A stretch of DNA of 36,325 bases from an uncultured Clostridia bacterium. GTDB lineage: Bacteria > Bacillota > Clostridia > Oscillospirales > Ruminococcaceae. Each line of letters opens with the position of its first letter. Position 1 is the first letter of the stretch. Both the position numbers and the translations under genes were made by a program. The notes beneath the pieces were generated by a model. It worked only from the letters and a program-made list of their open reading frames with translations. It was not told where the DNA came from and did no database searches. The stretch covers positions 1-36,325 of the forward strand of contig CANQUJ010000019.1 of NCBI GenBank assembly GCA_947627005.1, read 5' to 3'. Below, piece after piece: positions 10 to 21,230 of this stretch.

Positions 10-124
10 TAGATTGCCCCTGAACGCCTCCGAATCGCGGATTTTCGGAACGAAAACCTTTGAGCGCGACGGTTGGGGAGCATATCGACGCGCTTTTTTA
101 AGGGGTGAGCGGAATGGCGATTGA
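2..124 (+). CDS. 3' end of an unknown gene, running through a poly-G tract into the helicase start
   Basis: Of the three forward frames at the left edge only this one stays open: one of the others meets TAG at 10-12, the other meets TGA at 21-23. It codes for about 40 residues (GGGRLPLNASESRIFGTKTF, then a stretch rich in Arg and aromatics) and ends with TGA at 122-124. That stop overlaps the helicase ATG (114) by 11 nt, as expected of a coupled upstream gene. The product is not recognisable from so little. The G run at the edge lies inside this frame, so tract length would decide whether these last 37 or so codons are read. Chance openness of a 120-nt frame cannot be excluded. Confidence 0.4.
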   Translation, partial: GGGRLPLNASESRIFGTKTFERDGWGAYRRAFLRGERNGD

Positions 125-2792
125 GCTTTTTAAACACAACGAAACGGCTTATAAGGCCACCGTTGCTATGCTCGCAGAGACGAAAAAAGCCGCAATTATC
201 CACCCGACTGGAACAGGTAAGAGCTTCATCGGCTTTAAGCTCTGCGAGGAGAATCCGTCAAAAACCGTCTGCTGGCTCTCGCCTTCGGAATATATCTTCA
301 AAACCCAGCTCGAAGCGCTGAAAAAATCCGCCGACTTCACGCCCGCGAACGTTAAATTTTTCACCTATTCAAAACTTATGAACCTTGAAGAGTCCGAGAT
401 TTCGGACATCAAACCGGACTTTATAGTTTTGGACGAGTTCCACCGAGCCGGCGCGGAACAGTGGGGGAGGGGCGTAAAAAAGCTTCTCTCGGCCTACCCC
501 GAAGCGCCTATCTTGGGGCTCTCGGCCACTAATATACGGTATCTGGACAATCAGCGCGACATGGCCGACGAGCTGTTCGAGGGCAATATTGCTTCCGAAA
601 TGACCCTCGGCGAGGCAATTGTTCGCGGAATCCTTAACCCGCCTAAGTATGTACTATCTATATATAGTTACCAAAAAGATCTCGAACGCTATGAAAGGCG
701 TGTCAAAGCGGCCAAGAATAAGGCGGTCAGAGACGCCGCAGAGCGCTATCTTGAGGCTCTCCGCAGGGCTTTGGACAAGGCAGACGGTCTCGACAAAATC
801 TTTGCTAAGCATATGACTGACCCGCACGGGAAGTACATCGTGTTCTGTGCGAACGCCGAGCATATGCGGGCGATGATGGCAGAATCGAAGGCTTGGTTTA
901 GCGAGATTGACCAAGATTATCACAGTTATTCTGTTTACTCCGACGACCCCGAGGCTTCGCAATCTTTCGCAGATTTTAAAGCAGACGACAGCGATCACCT
1001 GCGCCTCTTGTTCTGCATAGACGCGCTTAACGAGGGTATCCACGTCGATGACGTTGCGGGAGTAATCCTGCTTAGACCGACCGTTTCACCTATCATCTAC
1101 AAGCAGCAAATCGGCCGCGCGCTTTCGGCATCTTCAACAAAAAATCCTGTTATTTTTGACATAGTCAACAATATCTCCGGATTATATAGCATTTCGAGTT
1201 TACAGGACGAGATGAACGAAACTGTCAGATACTACCAATATCTCGGCGAGGGCGAATCTATCGTCAACCAAAGATTTGAAATTTTAGACGATCTTAAGGA
1301 TTGCCGGAGGATTTTTGATGAGCTGGAGACCGCGCTTTCGGCGAGTTGGGAGTTTATGTTCGACGAGGCGAAGGCCTATTTTAGGCGGTTTGGCGACCTG
1401 CTTCCCGGCAACGACTACGTCACCGAGGACGGCATGAAGCTCGGGAAATGGCTCGTCACGCAACGGATAAATTACCGCAACGGAACCGGAATTTCGCAGG
1501 CGAGAATAGAAAAGCTGAACTCTATCGGCATGGATTGGCGCACCCTGCACGAGCGCCAGTGGGACGAGGGTTACGAGCTGGCGAGGGCGTATTTTGAGCG
1601 ATTCAAGGACTTGGAACCCGACCGCGAGAGCTTTCCGAAGGTAAGCCTTTGGCTTAGCCGGCAGCGGCAGAAATATCGCGAAAATCAGCTTACGGAAGAC
1701 CAGATCGCGCGGCTTAACGCGATAGATATGACCTGGGAATTTGAGGACGATTGGGACAAGAAGTTTGCCGAAGCGAGCGAATATTATAAAACCCGCGGCA
1801 ATCTCGACGTTCCTGCGGCGTATGTTACCGAAAACGGTACCGCTTTAGGGGCGTGGCTGCGAGGAATGAGAGAGCGGCGCAAGGCGGGAAAGCTTTCGGA
1901 AGAGAGAATTGAAAAGCTTGAAAGCATAGGTATGAGTTGGAGCTCGGCCGGAGAGCGAAGCTGGGAGGCTTGCTATGCCCTTGCGAAGCGCTTTTACGAA
2001 GTCAACGGAAATTTAAATATAGGAGCCGCGTATGTCTTGGACGGCGTGAAGCTTGGAAACTGGATATCTTCGCAGCGAGTCGCCTATAAACAGGGCGGAC
2101 TTAGCGAAGAGCGCGTTAAAAAGCTTGAGCTTATCGGAATGAGCTGGCAGCGGCAGGGCGACAGATGGAACGCGGCCTACGCGAGAGCGAAAGAATATTA
2201 TAAGGTATTCGGCGAGCTGAACCCGCAGGCGGGATATGTCGACGGAACGGGGTTTGCGCTCGGGGCGTGGGTTGCCGCGCAAAGGCGGAAATTCGGCGGC
2301 GGAAAGCTTAGGAAAGATCAAATCGAACGGCTTGACGAGCTTAAAATCATATGGAGCCCGACCGAGGCGGTTTGGCGAAACGGATTCGACCACGCGAGGA
2401 TTTATGTCCGCGAAAAGGGCGATCTAAACGTCCCTGCGGGGTATATCTGCGACGACGGCTACGCGCTCGGCAACTGGGTCGCGGCGCAGAAAAAATCCTA
2501 CTTCGGCGGAAGGCTTTCGGGCGAGAGGATTTCGGCGCTCGAGGGCATTGGAATAAGCTGGAGCCGCAACGCCGACAGATGGGACAAGGGCTACGGTTAT
2601 GCGAAATCATACCGCAGCGGCGGGGGAGATCTGCCGATACCGCAGACTTTCGTCACCGCCGACGGCTACCCGCTCGGCGAATGGGTTAGGTCGCAGGAAA
2701 GGCGATTCAGAAGCGGCAGATTAGAGAGCGAAAAGGTCAAAAAGCTTGCCGAAATCGGAGTTAAATTCAAAGTTGGTGAAAGATTTGAGTGA
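114..2792 (+). CDS. DEAD/DEAH-type SF2 helicase with seven C-terminal helicase-associated (HA) repeats
   Basis: ATG 114 is preferred over GTG 105 because AAGGGGTGA lies 6 nt upstream. The first ~400 residues form an SF2 helicase core: motif I GTGKS at residues 33-37, DEFH at 107-110 (motif II), a LGLSATN motif III and QQIGRALS as motif VI. From about residue 413 to the end run seven tandem modules of about 68 residues. Each has a leading Trp/Phe, 'A..YY...G.L', a 'LG.W...QR..' core and a closing 'L..IGMSW', which is the helicase-associated domain pattern. The gene overlaps the next reading frame by 8 nt. Nucleic-acid remodelling activity is inferred from the family; why it sits in a polysaccharide operon is unknown. 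The DNA repeats could recombine and change repeat number. Confidence 0.88.
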   Translation: MAIELFKHNETAYKATVAMLAETKKAAIIHPTGTGKSFIGFKLCEENPSKTVCWLSPSEYIFKTQLEALKKSADFTPANVKFFTYSKLMNLEESEISDIKPDFIVLDEFHRAGAEQWGRGVKKLLSAYPEAPILGLSATNIRYLDNQRDMADELFEGNIASEMTLGEAIVRGILNPPKYVLSIYSYQKDLERYERRVKAAKNKAVRDAAERYLEALRRALDKADGLDKIFAKHMTDPHGKYIVFCANAEHMRAMMAESKAWFSEIDQDYHSYSVYSDDPEASQSFADFKADDSDHLRLLFCIDALNEGIHVDDVAGVILLRPTVSPIIYKQQIGRALSASSTKNPVIFDIVNNISGLYSISSLQDEMNETVRYYQYLGEGESIVNQRFEILDDLKDCRRIFDELETALSASWEFMFDEAKAYFRRFGDLLPGNDYVTEDGMKLGKWLVTQRINYRNGTGISQARIEKLNSIGMDWRTLHERQWDEGYELARAYFERFKDLEPDRESFPKVSLWLSRQRQKYRENQLTEDQIARLNAIDMTWEFEDDWDKKFAEASEYYKTRGNLDVPAAYVTENGTALGAWLRGMRERRKAGKLSEERIEKLESIGMSWSSAGERSWEACYALAKRFYEVNGNLNIGAAYVLDGVKLGNWISSQRVAYKQGGLSEERVKKLELIGMSWQRQGDRWNAAYARAKEYYKVFGELNPQAGYVDGTGFALGAWVAAQRRKFGGGKLRKDQIERLDELKIIWSPTEAVWRNGFDHARIYVREKGDLNVPAGYICDDGYALGNWVAAQKKSYFGGRLSGERISALEGIGISWSRNADRWDKGYGYAKSYRSGGGDLPIPQTFVTADGYPLGEWVRSQERRFRSGRLESEKVKKLAEIGVKFKVGERFE

Positions 2793-19688: not shown

Positions 19689-19933
19689 CAATCCTAAGCA
19701 TAAAACAAAAATTCCGCTTTGCCGTTGTTTGCAGACATAAAACCCGCACGAGGCAGGACGGGTAAAATCGCCCCGATTGTTTCGCGCTCCCTTCGTCCGC
19801 AAAAAGCGGGAGGTCTGCAGTCCGCACTCGGAGGACGAATCCCTTTAATTATGTGTTGGATTTATAAAACCGCAAACTGTCGCACAAAGCAGAATGTTTT
19901 TATTTTGCCGATTTTCGGCCGATATATTCGGGC

Positions 19934-20275
19934 TTATGATTCCTCGCCCTCGTAGTCGTCGCCCTCAAAGTCTTCTTCCTCGTCTTCGCCGTCGTAATAA
20001 TTTTCAAGCCGTTCGAGGAATATCCCGCCGATACGCTCGTATTCTTCTTCGTCGTCGATCGAAACAAGCTCTTCTTCGCCGCTCGAGTCGTCAAGCTTAA
20101 GGACGACAAGCTCGGCGTCGCCTTTTATCGAGTCCGCCGGGTCGTCGTATACCGGGACCATCGCGTAGTAGATAACGCCGTTTTCTTCCAGCGTATCCAA
20201 AAGCTCAAAGGTCGATTCTTCGCCGTTTTCGTCGCTTAAGGTGTATATATCCGGGTTGTAGTTGTAGTCGCTCAT
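19934..20275 (-). CDS. DUF1292 family acidic protein (YrzB-like)
   Basis: 113 residues from ATG 20275 (AAAGGAATC upstream); the longer frame to 20335 would begin within the promoter. The segment DIYTLSDENGEESTFELLDT followed by IYYAMVPVY is the DUF1292 core, and the C-terminal third is extremely acidic (DGEDEEEDFEGDDYEGEES). Function of the family is unknown; the usual neighbour is ruvX, as here, though in convergent orientation. Expressed from its own sigma-A promoter, back to back with the promoter of the mini-ORF leader. Confidence 0.88.
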   Translation of the reverse strand: MSDYNYNPDIYTLSDENGEESTFELLDTLEENGVIYYAMVPVYDDPADSIKGDAELVVLKLDDSSGEEELVSIDDEEEYERIGGIFLERLENYYDGEDEEEDFEGDDYEGEES

Positions 20276-20326
20276 ATAAAAGATTCCTTTGCTGATCTTA
20301 GCCGCGGTTATGCCCGCAACATTATC

Positions 20327-20355
20327 AGTATACAATATTCCGCCCCCGAAGTCAA
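20327..20355 (-). promoter_or_regulatory. Sigma-A promoter for the DUF1292 gene
   Basis: Minus strand TTGACT (20355-20350), 17-nt spacer, TATACT (20332-20327). Confidence 0.75.
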
Positions 20356-20413: not shown

Positions 20414-20442
20414 TTGACAATCACTAAAAAGTGTGTTATATT
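20414..20442 (+). promoter_or_regulatory. Strong sigma-A promoter with UP-like A/T tracts for the mini-ORF leader
   Basis: TTGACA (20414-20419), 17-nt spacer, TATATT (20437-20442). Directly upstream (20380-20408) are phased A and T tracts like an UP element. Transcription should start near 20449. Confidence 0.85.
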
Positions 20443-20513
20443 ATAGACACAGAAAGAGAGAAGAAGAAAAACAAGCCAAGGGGCTTGAACAAAACGCAAA
20501 GGGGTAGATTCCA

Positions 20514-20537
20514 ATGAAGAGGCATCTTAACAAGTAG
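20514..20537 (+). CDS. Mini-ORF 1 (7 residues)
   Basis: ATG behind AAAGGGGTAGATTCCA; peptide MKRHLNK, stop TAG. First of the series in the leader. Confidence 0.4.
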   Translation: MKRHLNK

Positions 20538-20580
20538 TCAACAGCCAAAGGCCATTGATCTAACGAAAGAGTGATGCTTT

Positions 20581-20607
20581 ATGAAACTCGCAAGATCCTG
20601 GATTTGA
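20581..20607 (+). CDS. Mini-ORF 2 (8 residues)
   Basis: ATG behind CGAAAGAGTGATGCTTT; peptide MKLARSWI, stop TGA. Confidence 0.4.
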   Translation: MKLARSWI

Positions 20608-20707
20608 AACCCGAATAAATATGAAAGAGGTGAGTCCGGCATACAACCTATAACCAACCAGATTCATTCGTAAAAGGTAAAAGAATAATCCCACGGAGAT
20701 GATTCCG

Positions 20708-20737
20708 ATGAATGTAAACAAACACAAAATTCTTTAA
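20708..20737 (+). CDS. Mini-ORF 4 (9 residues)
   Basis: ATG behind CACGGAGATGATTCCG; peptide MNVNKHKIL, stop TAA. Confidence 0.4.
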   Translation: MNVNKHKIL

Positions 20738-20761
20738 AAACCTTTGAAAGGTGTGAATCCG

Positions 20762-20785
20762 ATGAACAGGTGCATATCCGCTTAG
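20762..20785 (+). CDS. Mini-ORF 5 (7 residues)
   Basis: ATG behind GAAAGGTGTGAATCCG; peptide MNRCISA, stop TAG. Confidence 0.4.
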   Translation: MNRCISA

Positions 20786-20824
20786 CGGAACAAAACGATA
20801 AAAATAAATTTTAGATATATATTC

Positions 20825-20848
20825 AAGGGGCAGGAAGACTGCCCCTTT
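20825..20848 (+). terminator. Terminator-like hairpin between leader and secreted-protein gene
   Basis: AAGGGGCAG, loop GAAGA, CTGCCCCTT then T. The T run is only three long, so it may act as a partial terminator or attenuator. It ends 22 nt before the ATG of the next gene. Confidence 0.55.
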
Positions 20849-20870
20849 GAAATATTCGGAAAGAGAGCTT

Positions 20871-21230
20871 ATGAAACGGGTAATTTTGATTTTATCCGCG
20901 CTCGCGATAACCGTTGCGGGCGCCTCTGCTTTAGCCTTTAAAGAAGACGACTACATCGTAGCCGAGCCTATGGGAATAAATGTCACCAATCCTTTCAACC
21001 CCGAAGATCCGGATCACGACTGGCACGCCGATGGCTATTATCTTGAATCCGAGGTAGAGGATTGGACCCCCGAGGATTGGGACAACTACTACGCCGAATT
21101 TCCGCAGGCGTTTCCCAGCGACCACGACCCTCGCTATTTCGATCCCGCCGACAATTCCGCACGCGAAGATGACAGCGACTATGAATATACGGGGCCTGCC
21201 TTAGAGGGCTTAAGCATAGATTTCGAGTAG
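20871..21230 (+). CDS. Small secreted acidic protein, unknown
   Basis: 119 residues from ATG 20871, which has GGAAAGAGAG upstream, similar to the SD blocks of the preceding mini-ORFs; the TTG at 20847 lies in the hairpin and is unlikely. Residues 1-22 form a signal peptide (MKRVILILSALAITVAGASA). The mature chain of ~97 residues is about 30% Asp/Glu, rich in Tyr/Trp/Pro, and has no Cys and hardly any Lys. No family recognised. Low complexity and charge suggest cation binding or an extended wall-associated protein (inference). It appears to be the only ordinary gene read from the mini-ORF promoter, and is closed by a strong terminator. Confidence 0.75.
   Translation: MKRVILILSALAITVAGASALAFKEDDYIVAEPMGINVTNPFNPEDPDHDWHADGYYLESEVEDWTPEDWDNYYAEFPQAFPSDHDPRYFDPADNSAREDDSDYEYTGPALEGLSIDFE

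Follow-up and report, generated by a model that had tools for sequence, protein, structure and literature searches.

The question raised by this locus is what a bacterium gains from a promoter that is followed by a tandem series of SD-linked mini-ORFs. The window, i.e., the whole stretch of DNA that was analysed, is 36,325 nucleotides long and comes from an uncultured Clostridia bacterium of the Ruminococcaceae. An earlier note on this DNA had described a promoter, four SD-linked ATG mini-ORFs, an extra SD block, a hairpin and a secreted-protein gene, and all of these are found where it had placed them. It had also seen the series as the leader of the secreted protein, a view that is taken up below.

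The promoter on the forward strand, TTGACA (20414-20419), 17 nt and TATATT (20437-20442), is preceded by AT-rich tracts, and a stand-alone array RNA of about 400 nt is predicted from it (20449..20848, forward strand; its start is placed from the -10 box and its end from the hairpin). Four units on this strand combine an SD block with an ATG mini-ORF: unit A (20498..20537; MKRHLNK, 7 codons, 20514-20537; SD -12.8 kcal/mol), unit B (20565..20607; MKLARSWI, 8 codons, 20581-20607; -11.7 kcal/mol), unit D (20692..20737; MNVNKHKIL, 9 codons, 20708-20737; -12.3 kcal/mol) and unit E (20746..20785; MNRCISA, 7 codons, 20762-20785; -12.2 kcal/mol). Unit C (20623..20653, forward strand) is an SD block without an ATG, and its GTG frame reads VSPAYNL. 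A second ATG overlaps unit D and is followed at once by TAA (20712-20717, forward strand); it is absent in several relatives. The series is closed by a terminator-like hairpin, AAGGGGCAG-GAAGA-CTGCCCCTT, with a short T tract (20825..20847, forward strand), and behind it lies the gene of a secreted acidic protein of 119 aa without a Pfam match (20871..21230, forward strand, ATG at 20871). On the reverse strand there is a divergent DUF1292 gene (19934..20275; PF06949, E 8.8e-15), whose start we place at an internal Met within ORF 19934-20335, and a 6S RNA (19707..19898; RF00013, 57.8 bits, above the gathering score) that adjoins the DUF1292 gene and the array. Far from the array, the window encodes a helicase-like protein (105-2792, forward strand) with a repeated C-terminal module, as judged by eye from the translation only.

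Complementarity between the SD block and the 16S 3' end, GCTGGATCACCTCCTTTCT (found in 2/25 genus genomes searched), is nearly complete and extends past the usual core. With this end as the partner, the pairing energies of the four starts lie between -11.7 and -12.8 kcal/mol. The 369-nt leader contains five starts at -10 kcal/mol or better, counting the fifth that overlaps unit D (20712, ATG-TAA), while 2000 dinucleotide shuffles of the leader have a mean of 0.15 such starts and a maximum of 3; the count of four strong SD-linked ATG mini-ORFs was thus reached by none of them. In the rest of the window, any 370-nt stretch holds at most two. When a narrower energy stretch was used, just two starts were counted, which 12 of 1000 shuffles reach; this version of the test is weaker because the stretch excluded the 3' part of the SD block.

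The array is widespread in the genus. A sequence-only model of units B to E (model R1) matched 26 genomes, all of these matches were partly read, and G008 was added by a pattern scan, giving 27 of 31 genomes; G008 is counted from the pattern alone and the promoter was not seen there. Neither the model nor the pattern scans found the array in the other four (G007, G012, G013 and G025). The array has two forms: 13 genomes, including that of the window, have the short form of about 400 nt, and the other 13 of the 26 matched by R1 have a longer or intermediate form. At the DNA level the leader matches at 72-87% in 12 other genus genomes, two of which (G015 and G028) match it only piecewise, and the conserved matches stop between 20764 and 20858, i.e., near or before the hairpin. 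The promoter can be aligned in the 13 short-form loci and in the divergent locus L014.

The alignment of relatives, which the earlier note had proposed as a check, shows that the SD-start-stop units are kept, and every unit was recovered from each of the 13 short-form genomes, using patterns that fix part of the sequence and that altered extra copies could escape. The conservation that was expected holds for the units and not for their number, as the A+B block is present in two tandem copies in L011 and in three in L012. Unit A has a start and an early stop in all of its 16 copies from 13 genomes; its peptide drifts, and four copies consist of MKR only. Unit E with its early stop is present in 13/13 short-form genomes. 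Unit C had been taken for a degenerate copy with an ATA start, yet it is no decayed remnant: it is present in 13/13 short-form genomes, in the divergent genus members G006, G014, G023, G024 and G030 the remaining match covers its block, and blocks of its kind recur in other genera. We also rejected unit C as an ORF with an ATA start, because the residues of the ATA frame drift (by eye), whereas the GTG frame retains VSPAY in 12/13 genomes (VIPAY in L011).

Of the 31 stretches matched by a pattern scan of public genome contigs, 28 belong to entries named as Oscillospiraceae, Ruminococcus, Faeciplasma or uncultured Clostridia, with some of the 28 coming from roe deer rectum and many from a 'Lapin' series. 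The remaining three (Bdellovibrionales, Oligoflexia and Vibrio) look like chance. A phage origin was considered and set aside, as one motif pattern gave no match among viral contigs. Within the order, the exact motif was found in 3/295 genomes, all from the genus of the window. Allowing one mismatch gave 45/295 genomes, nine of these among the family's 26, and the reversed control matched 13 genomes; for this reason the one-mismatch matches outside the family may be largely chance or ordinary SDs.

Arrays of this kind were also found in other genera. Because a 6S RNA and a DUF1292 gene flank the array of the window, 6S loci were examined in the order: 25 of 30 genomes had a match, giving 26 loci, and the 15 that seemed to have a promoter were inspected. 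Five of these 15 carry arrays, four in other genera of the family (L099, L107, L115 and L117) and one in another family (L110); the other ten show ordinary genes, other leaders or a sequence that ends too early. The array of the second family has diverged further and shows one clear motif-type unit, and its DNA matches all four genomes of that genus, two only partly. A 6S RNA is located near the array at 7/8 loci scanned, five of them above the gathering score.

An exact scan for AAGGTGAGTCCRATG in 197 genomes of the family gave 27 places in 21 genomes, with control columns that had no match, and 25 of the 27 places open ORFs of at most four codons. The family arrays have similar promoters upstream, and at 16 of the 21 motif loci the array is divergent to a DUF1292 gene. 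In these 16 stretches, a stop follows within four sense codons for 21/22 ATGs behind AAGGTGAGTCCRATG and for 50/196 other ATGs (P=6e-12 if the sites are taken as independent, which the 22 motif sites are not: several are paired from one genus or genome, and the choice of the motif was made after the sites of G066 had been seen). This count excludes five loci without a DUF1292 match. At L127, in the window's own genome, the motif opens a 106-codon ORF, and at L126, L128, L134 and L137 it opens one to three codons. In L128 and L134 (position 1501; G469 and G427), a similar small gene is immediately followed by the SD block and a bare ATG-TAA; located away from any DUF1292 match, these sites are perhaps part of a mobile element. 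At L137 (G504), a promoter-like site from about 1427 is followed by SD-ATG-TTC-TGA, perhaps a relocated or second array.

The minimal ORFs found in the family include MY, MK, MV, MN, ME, MT, MI and even a bare ATG-stop (in G395 and G035), and the second codon can be Y, K, N, E, V, I, R or T. Most motif units of other genera have 0-3 codons after the start, compared with 3-13 in the genus of the window. In these other genera SD, ATG and stop are kept while the coding part nearly vanishes, which fits the earlier proposal that selection acts on initiation sites. The SD block, the start and the early stop are what the units have in common and the second codon is varied, which argues for ribosome engagement rather than for a fixed peptide or tRNA.

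DUF1292 matches were present in 43/46 genomes, and among the best-scoring 30 loci a promoter with SD starts was seen at 18, or at 14 in a strict count that drops L190, L191, L194 and L204, with a single SD-linked unit each. At the other 12 of these 30 the array was not seen; the gene that directly follows at several of them is one that we take, by its sequence, to be peptidyl-prolyl-isomerase-like. Given these 12 loci and the four genus genomes in which it was not found, the array is dispensable. SD blocks without an ATG occur in other genera at 10/30 loci (one doubtful, two from one genome), and the counterpart of unit C there is GTGAGTCCACC, with a VSPPxSLA-like frame. GTG frames reading VSPP, IPP or RPP were seen in the ATG-less blocks of L124, L131, L133, L140, L141, L142, L201 and L205, where the diproline could slow ribosomes.

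The explanation that we prefer, with somewhat less than even confidence, is that the array belongs to an undescribed RNA family in which serial start-stop sites engage ribosomes, as a decoy or a sensor. It is built on the conservation, the place beside DUF1292, the start-stop architecture and the genus-level conservation of the peptides of B and D. The consensus promoter would drive an RNA of roughly 0.4-1 kb, apparently ending in an intrinsic terminator, with serial initiation sites. At each site, a start codon follows an SD block that nearly complements the 16S 3' end, and a stop closes the frame a few codons on. If the RNA is transcribed, ribosomes may load at these sites and initiate, only to terminate and depart almost immediately. 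The occupancy of the RNA would then be proportional to free 30S subunits, and the RNA could serve either to divert initiating ribosomes as a decoy or to sense them. The initiating ribosomes would probably also protect and stabilise the array RNA. One observation against this reading is that the SD strength in the array is no higher than that of some ordinary genes of the window, two of which have comparable or stronger SDs (-12.0 and -16.3 kcal/mol). The dispensability of the array also speaks against it.

A further difficulty lies in the peptides themselves. In unit B, MKLARSWI is invariant in 16/16 copies from 13 genomes, and 8/8 substitutions are synonymous (expected 2.8, P=0.00005); in unit D, tested with the omission of L010 (a 9-nt in-frame insertion), 8/13 are synonymous (expected 3.3, P=0.0016). 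Each alternative base was counted once and no tree was used; both units also remain significant after a fivefold correction for the five units tested. Among the short-form genomes, no synonymous excess was found in units A, C and E (P 0.37, 0.25 and 0.18, respectively), with the four MKR-only rows omitted for A and the first five codons used for C. By eye, the B units of divergent genus members have a core like ARS or ARN, with exchanges of AGA/CGN for Arg and TCN/AGY for Ser. A +1 frame that overlaps unit B (MLYETRKILDLKPE, 20574-20618, forward strand) is open in several genomes; it was rejected as a coding frame, as 0/7 of its substitutions are synonymous, compared with 8/8 in the MKLARSWI frame. 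As far as this test sees, selection would act on the peptide at B and D and on the other units only as a start with an early stop. The earlier view that the peptides are not what is selected therefore fails for B and D, which are conserved through synonymous change.

Such peptide-level selection is not needed by a pure decoy, and it is what would be expected if the array were a polycistronic mRNA whose micropeptides (MKLARSWI, MNVNKHKIL and the first ORF of the family arrays) are functional, with SD blocks that merely ensure their translation. The synonymous-only change in B, the synonymous excess in D and the Arg and Ser exchanges of the divergent B units all favour this. So do two features of the wider family: the first listed ORF has 13-29 codons at 23/30 tabulated array loci (two from one genome), often starting roughly M[YD]x[ED]E, and VSPPxSLA-like frames are present at several loci. 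However, codon-level purifying selection was found at B and D alone, and the later motif units of other genera mostly have one to three varied residues, or none, after the start. We consider the micropeptide explanation rather unlikely. In the preferred reading, two mini-ORFs in the genus of the window would additionally have gained a peptide-level role, perhaps via the nascent chain.

The array could instead be a cis-acting leader in which its occupancy by ribosomes controls read-through of the weak hairpin into a small secreted-protein gene. Hairpins of differing sequence are found at the same place in other genomes, and the distance from the hairpin to the start of a signal-peptide-like ORF is 13-23 nt in L001, L002, L003, L007 and L012 and somewhat larger in L011, so that such a gene lies close behind it at 6/13 short-form loci. 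The attenuation suggested by the earlier note is possible at these six, and control of read-through may exist there additionally. However, apart from a truncated one in L005, the remaining short-form loci have no close signal-peptide-like gene (in L004, L006, L008 and L013 the automatic choice of hairpin fell later than the place behind unit E). Homologues of the window's secreted protein were found in 5/60 genomes searched, its own included; strong ones only in G003 and G010 (2/30 genus relatives) and weak ones in G007 and in G050 of another family, in a search that fast-evolving relatives could escape. The array is retained where this gene is absent or different, so that a role as leader of the secreted protein is secondary.

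A conserved alternative fold, as might serve such a leader, was not convincingly seen either. RNAalifold on 11 sequences gave no convincing global fold (covariation term -0.23 kcal/mol), and some of the predicted pairing is an artefact, as it involves promoter bases. A possible long-range helix around unit D on the forward strand (5' arms within 20661..20677; 20661-20667/20753-20759 and 20673-20677/20741-20745) would cover part of the SD block of unit E. In 12 sequences 93% of its cells are paired, and both sides have changed in 6 cells, where the shuffles average 2.4 (3/500 shuffles); the double-change pairs (127/500 shuffles) and the pair types (413/500) are not unusual. This helix, which may couple D to E, is suggestive only. 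Taken as the main function, control in cis appears improbable.

Another type of decoy is known from the sponge RNAs CsrB and CsrC, in which a short binding motif is repeated many times along one RNA. By analogy with CsrB and its target CsrA, the array might titrate a small RNA, or a regulator that binds RNA, through its purine block. Several copies of one short purine-rich motif are indeed present, and G032 and G035, two genomes of other genera that bear the array, have CsrA. In contrast, CsrA (PF02599) was found in 0/31 genus genomes, which makes a CsrA sponge unlikely in the genus, and it was not found in the array bearers G031, G034 and G058. In the array, unlike in CsrB/CsrC, the motif is coupled to start and early stop codons, which a protein site would not need, and we consider a regulator decoy very improbable. 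That the array is an ordinary stabilised transcript or a decayed gene without function of its own is hardly credible: the sequence drifts rapidly between genera and is missing from several genomes, but the promoter, the SD-start-stop units and the neighbour are conserved across genera and there is codon-level selection.

The array as a ribosome-engaging RNA can also be compared with described systems. Minigenes located in leaders are known from the bar genes of phage lambda. With this type and that of axe-txe, 21/22 family motif ATGs share the order SD, AUG, few codons and stop; the ORFs of the window are longer, 7-9 codons. In the axe-txe two-codon minigene, an SD and an AUG are followed by one or two sense codons before the stop, at which ribosomes terminate immediately, and mRNA-bound ribosomes are proposed to protect the mRNA (PMC8708949). 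The axe-txe minigenes are located in a single gene's leader and are cis-acting, whereas the array is a conserved multi-unit element without a constant downstream gene, and its second codons are varied, even down to ATG-stop. The STAB-SD of Bacillus thuringiensis cry3A is SD-like, can pair with the 16S 3' end and is thought to bind 30S and stabilise the RNA (PMC4113751). It is presented there as a single non-translating site, while most array units have a start and a stop: 4/5 window units are ATG-ORF-stop, and B and D evolve as coding. Only unit C, the SD block without an ATG, resembles it. These two systems are the nearest, and for both the described action is in cis, on a single transcript.

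In Salmonella mgtCBR, a long leader contains two short ORFs and alternative hairpins (PMC3641672). The array differs from what is described there, having no constant regulated gene, since the gene downstream varies or is missing, and no convincing alternative fold found here. Short intergenic ORFs of five genomes are reported in general terms in PMC6429828. Searching the leader and its relatives against Rfam 15 gave nothing above the gathering score except 6S RNA, and a literature search, with subscription journals mostly outside its coverage, gave no described counterpart of the array. The feature is real and conserved, it is wider than the earlier note had found, and it is unlike the systems that we can name.

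A bolder form of the ribosome-engaging reading is that tandem start-stop arrays are a new bacterial RNA class, encoded near 6S RNA, that captures initiating ribosomes in trans. We think this possible rather than likely. 6S RNA binds RNA polymerase, and a trans-acting array RNA, if real, would be its translational counterpart in a large clostridial family. If this is true, these bacteria would possess a dedicated, conserved RNA whose product is ribosome engagement, and not a protein or a base-pairing target, and start-stop initiation, ribosome titration and the way in which minimal ORFs evolve could all be studied in the arrays as a natural system. The results also suggest that codon-level selection can act on ORFs of eight or nine codons, which are usually too short for annotation to pick up.
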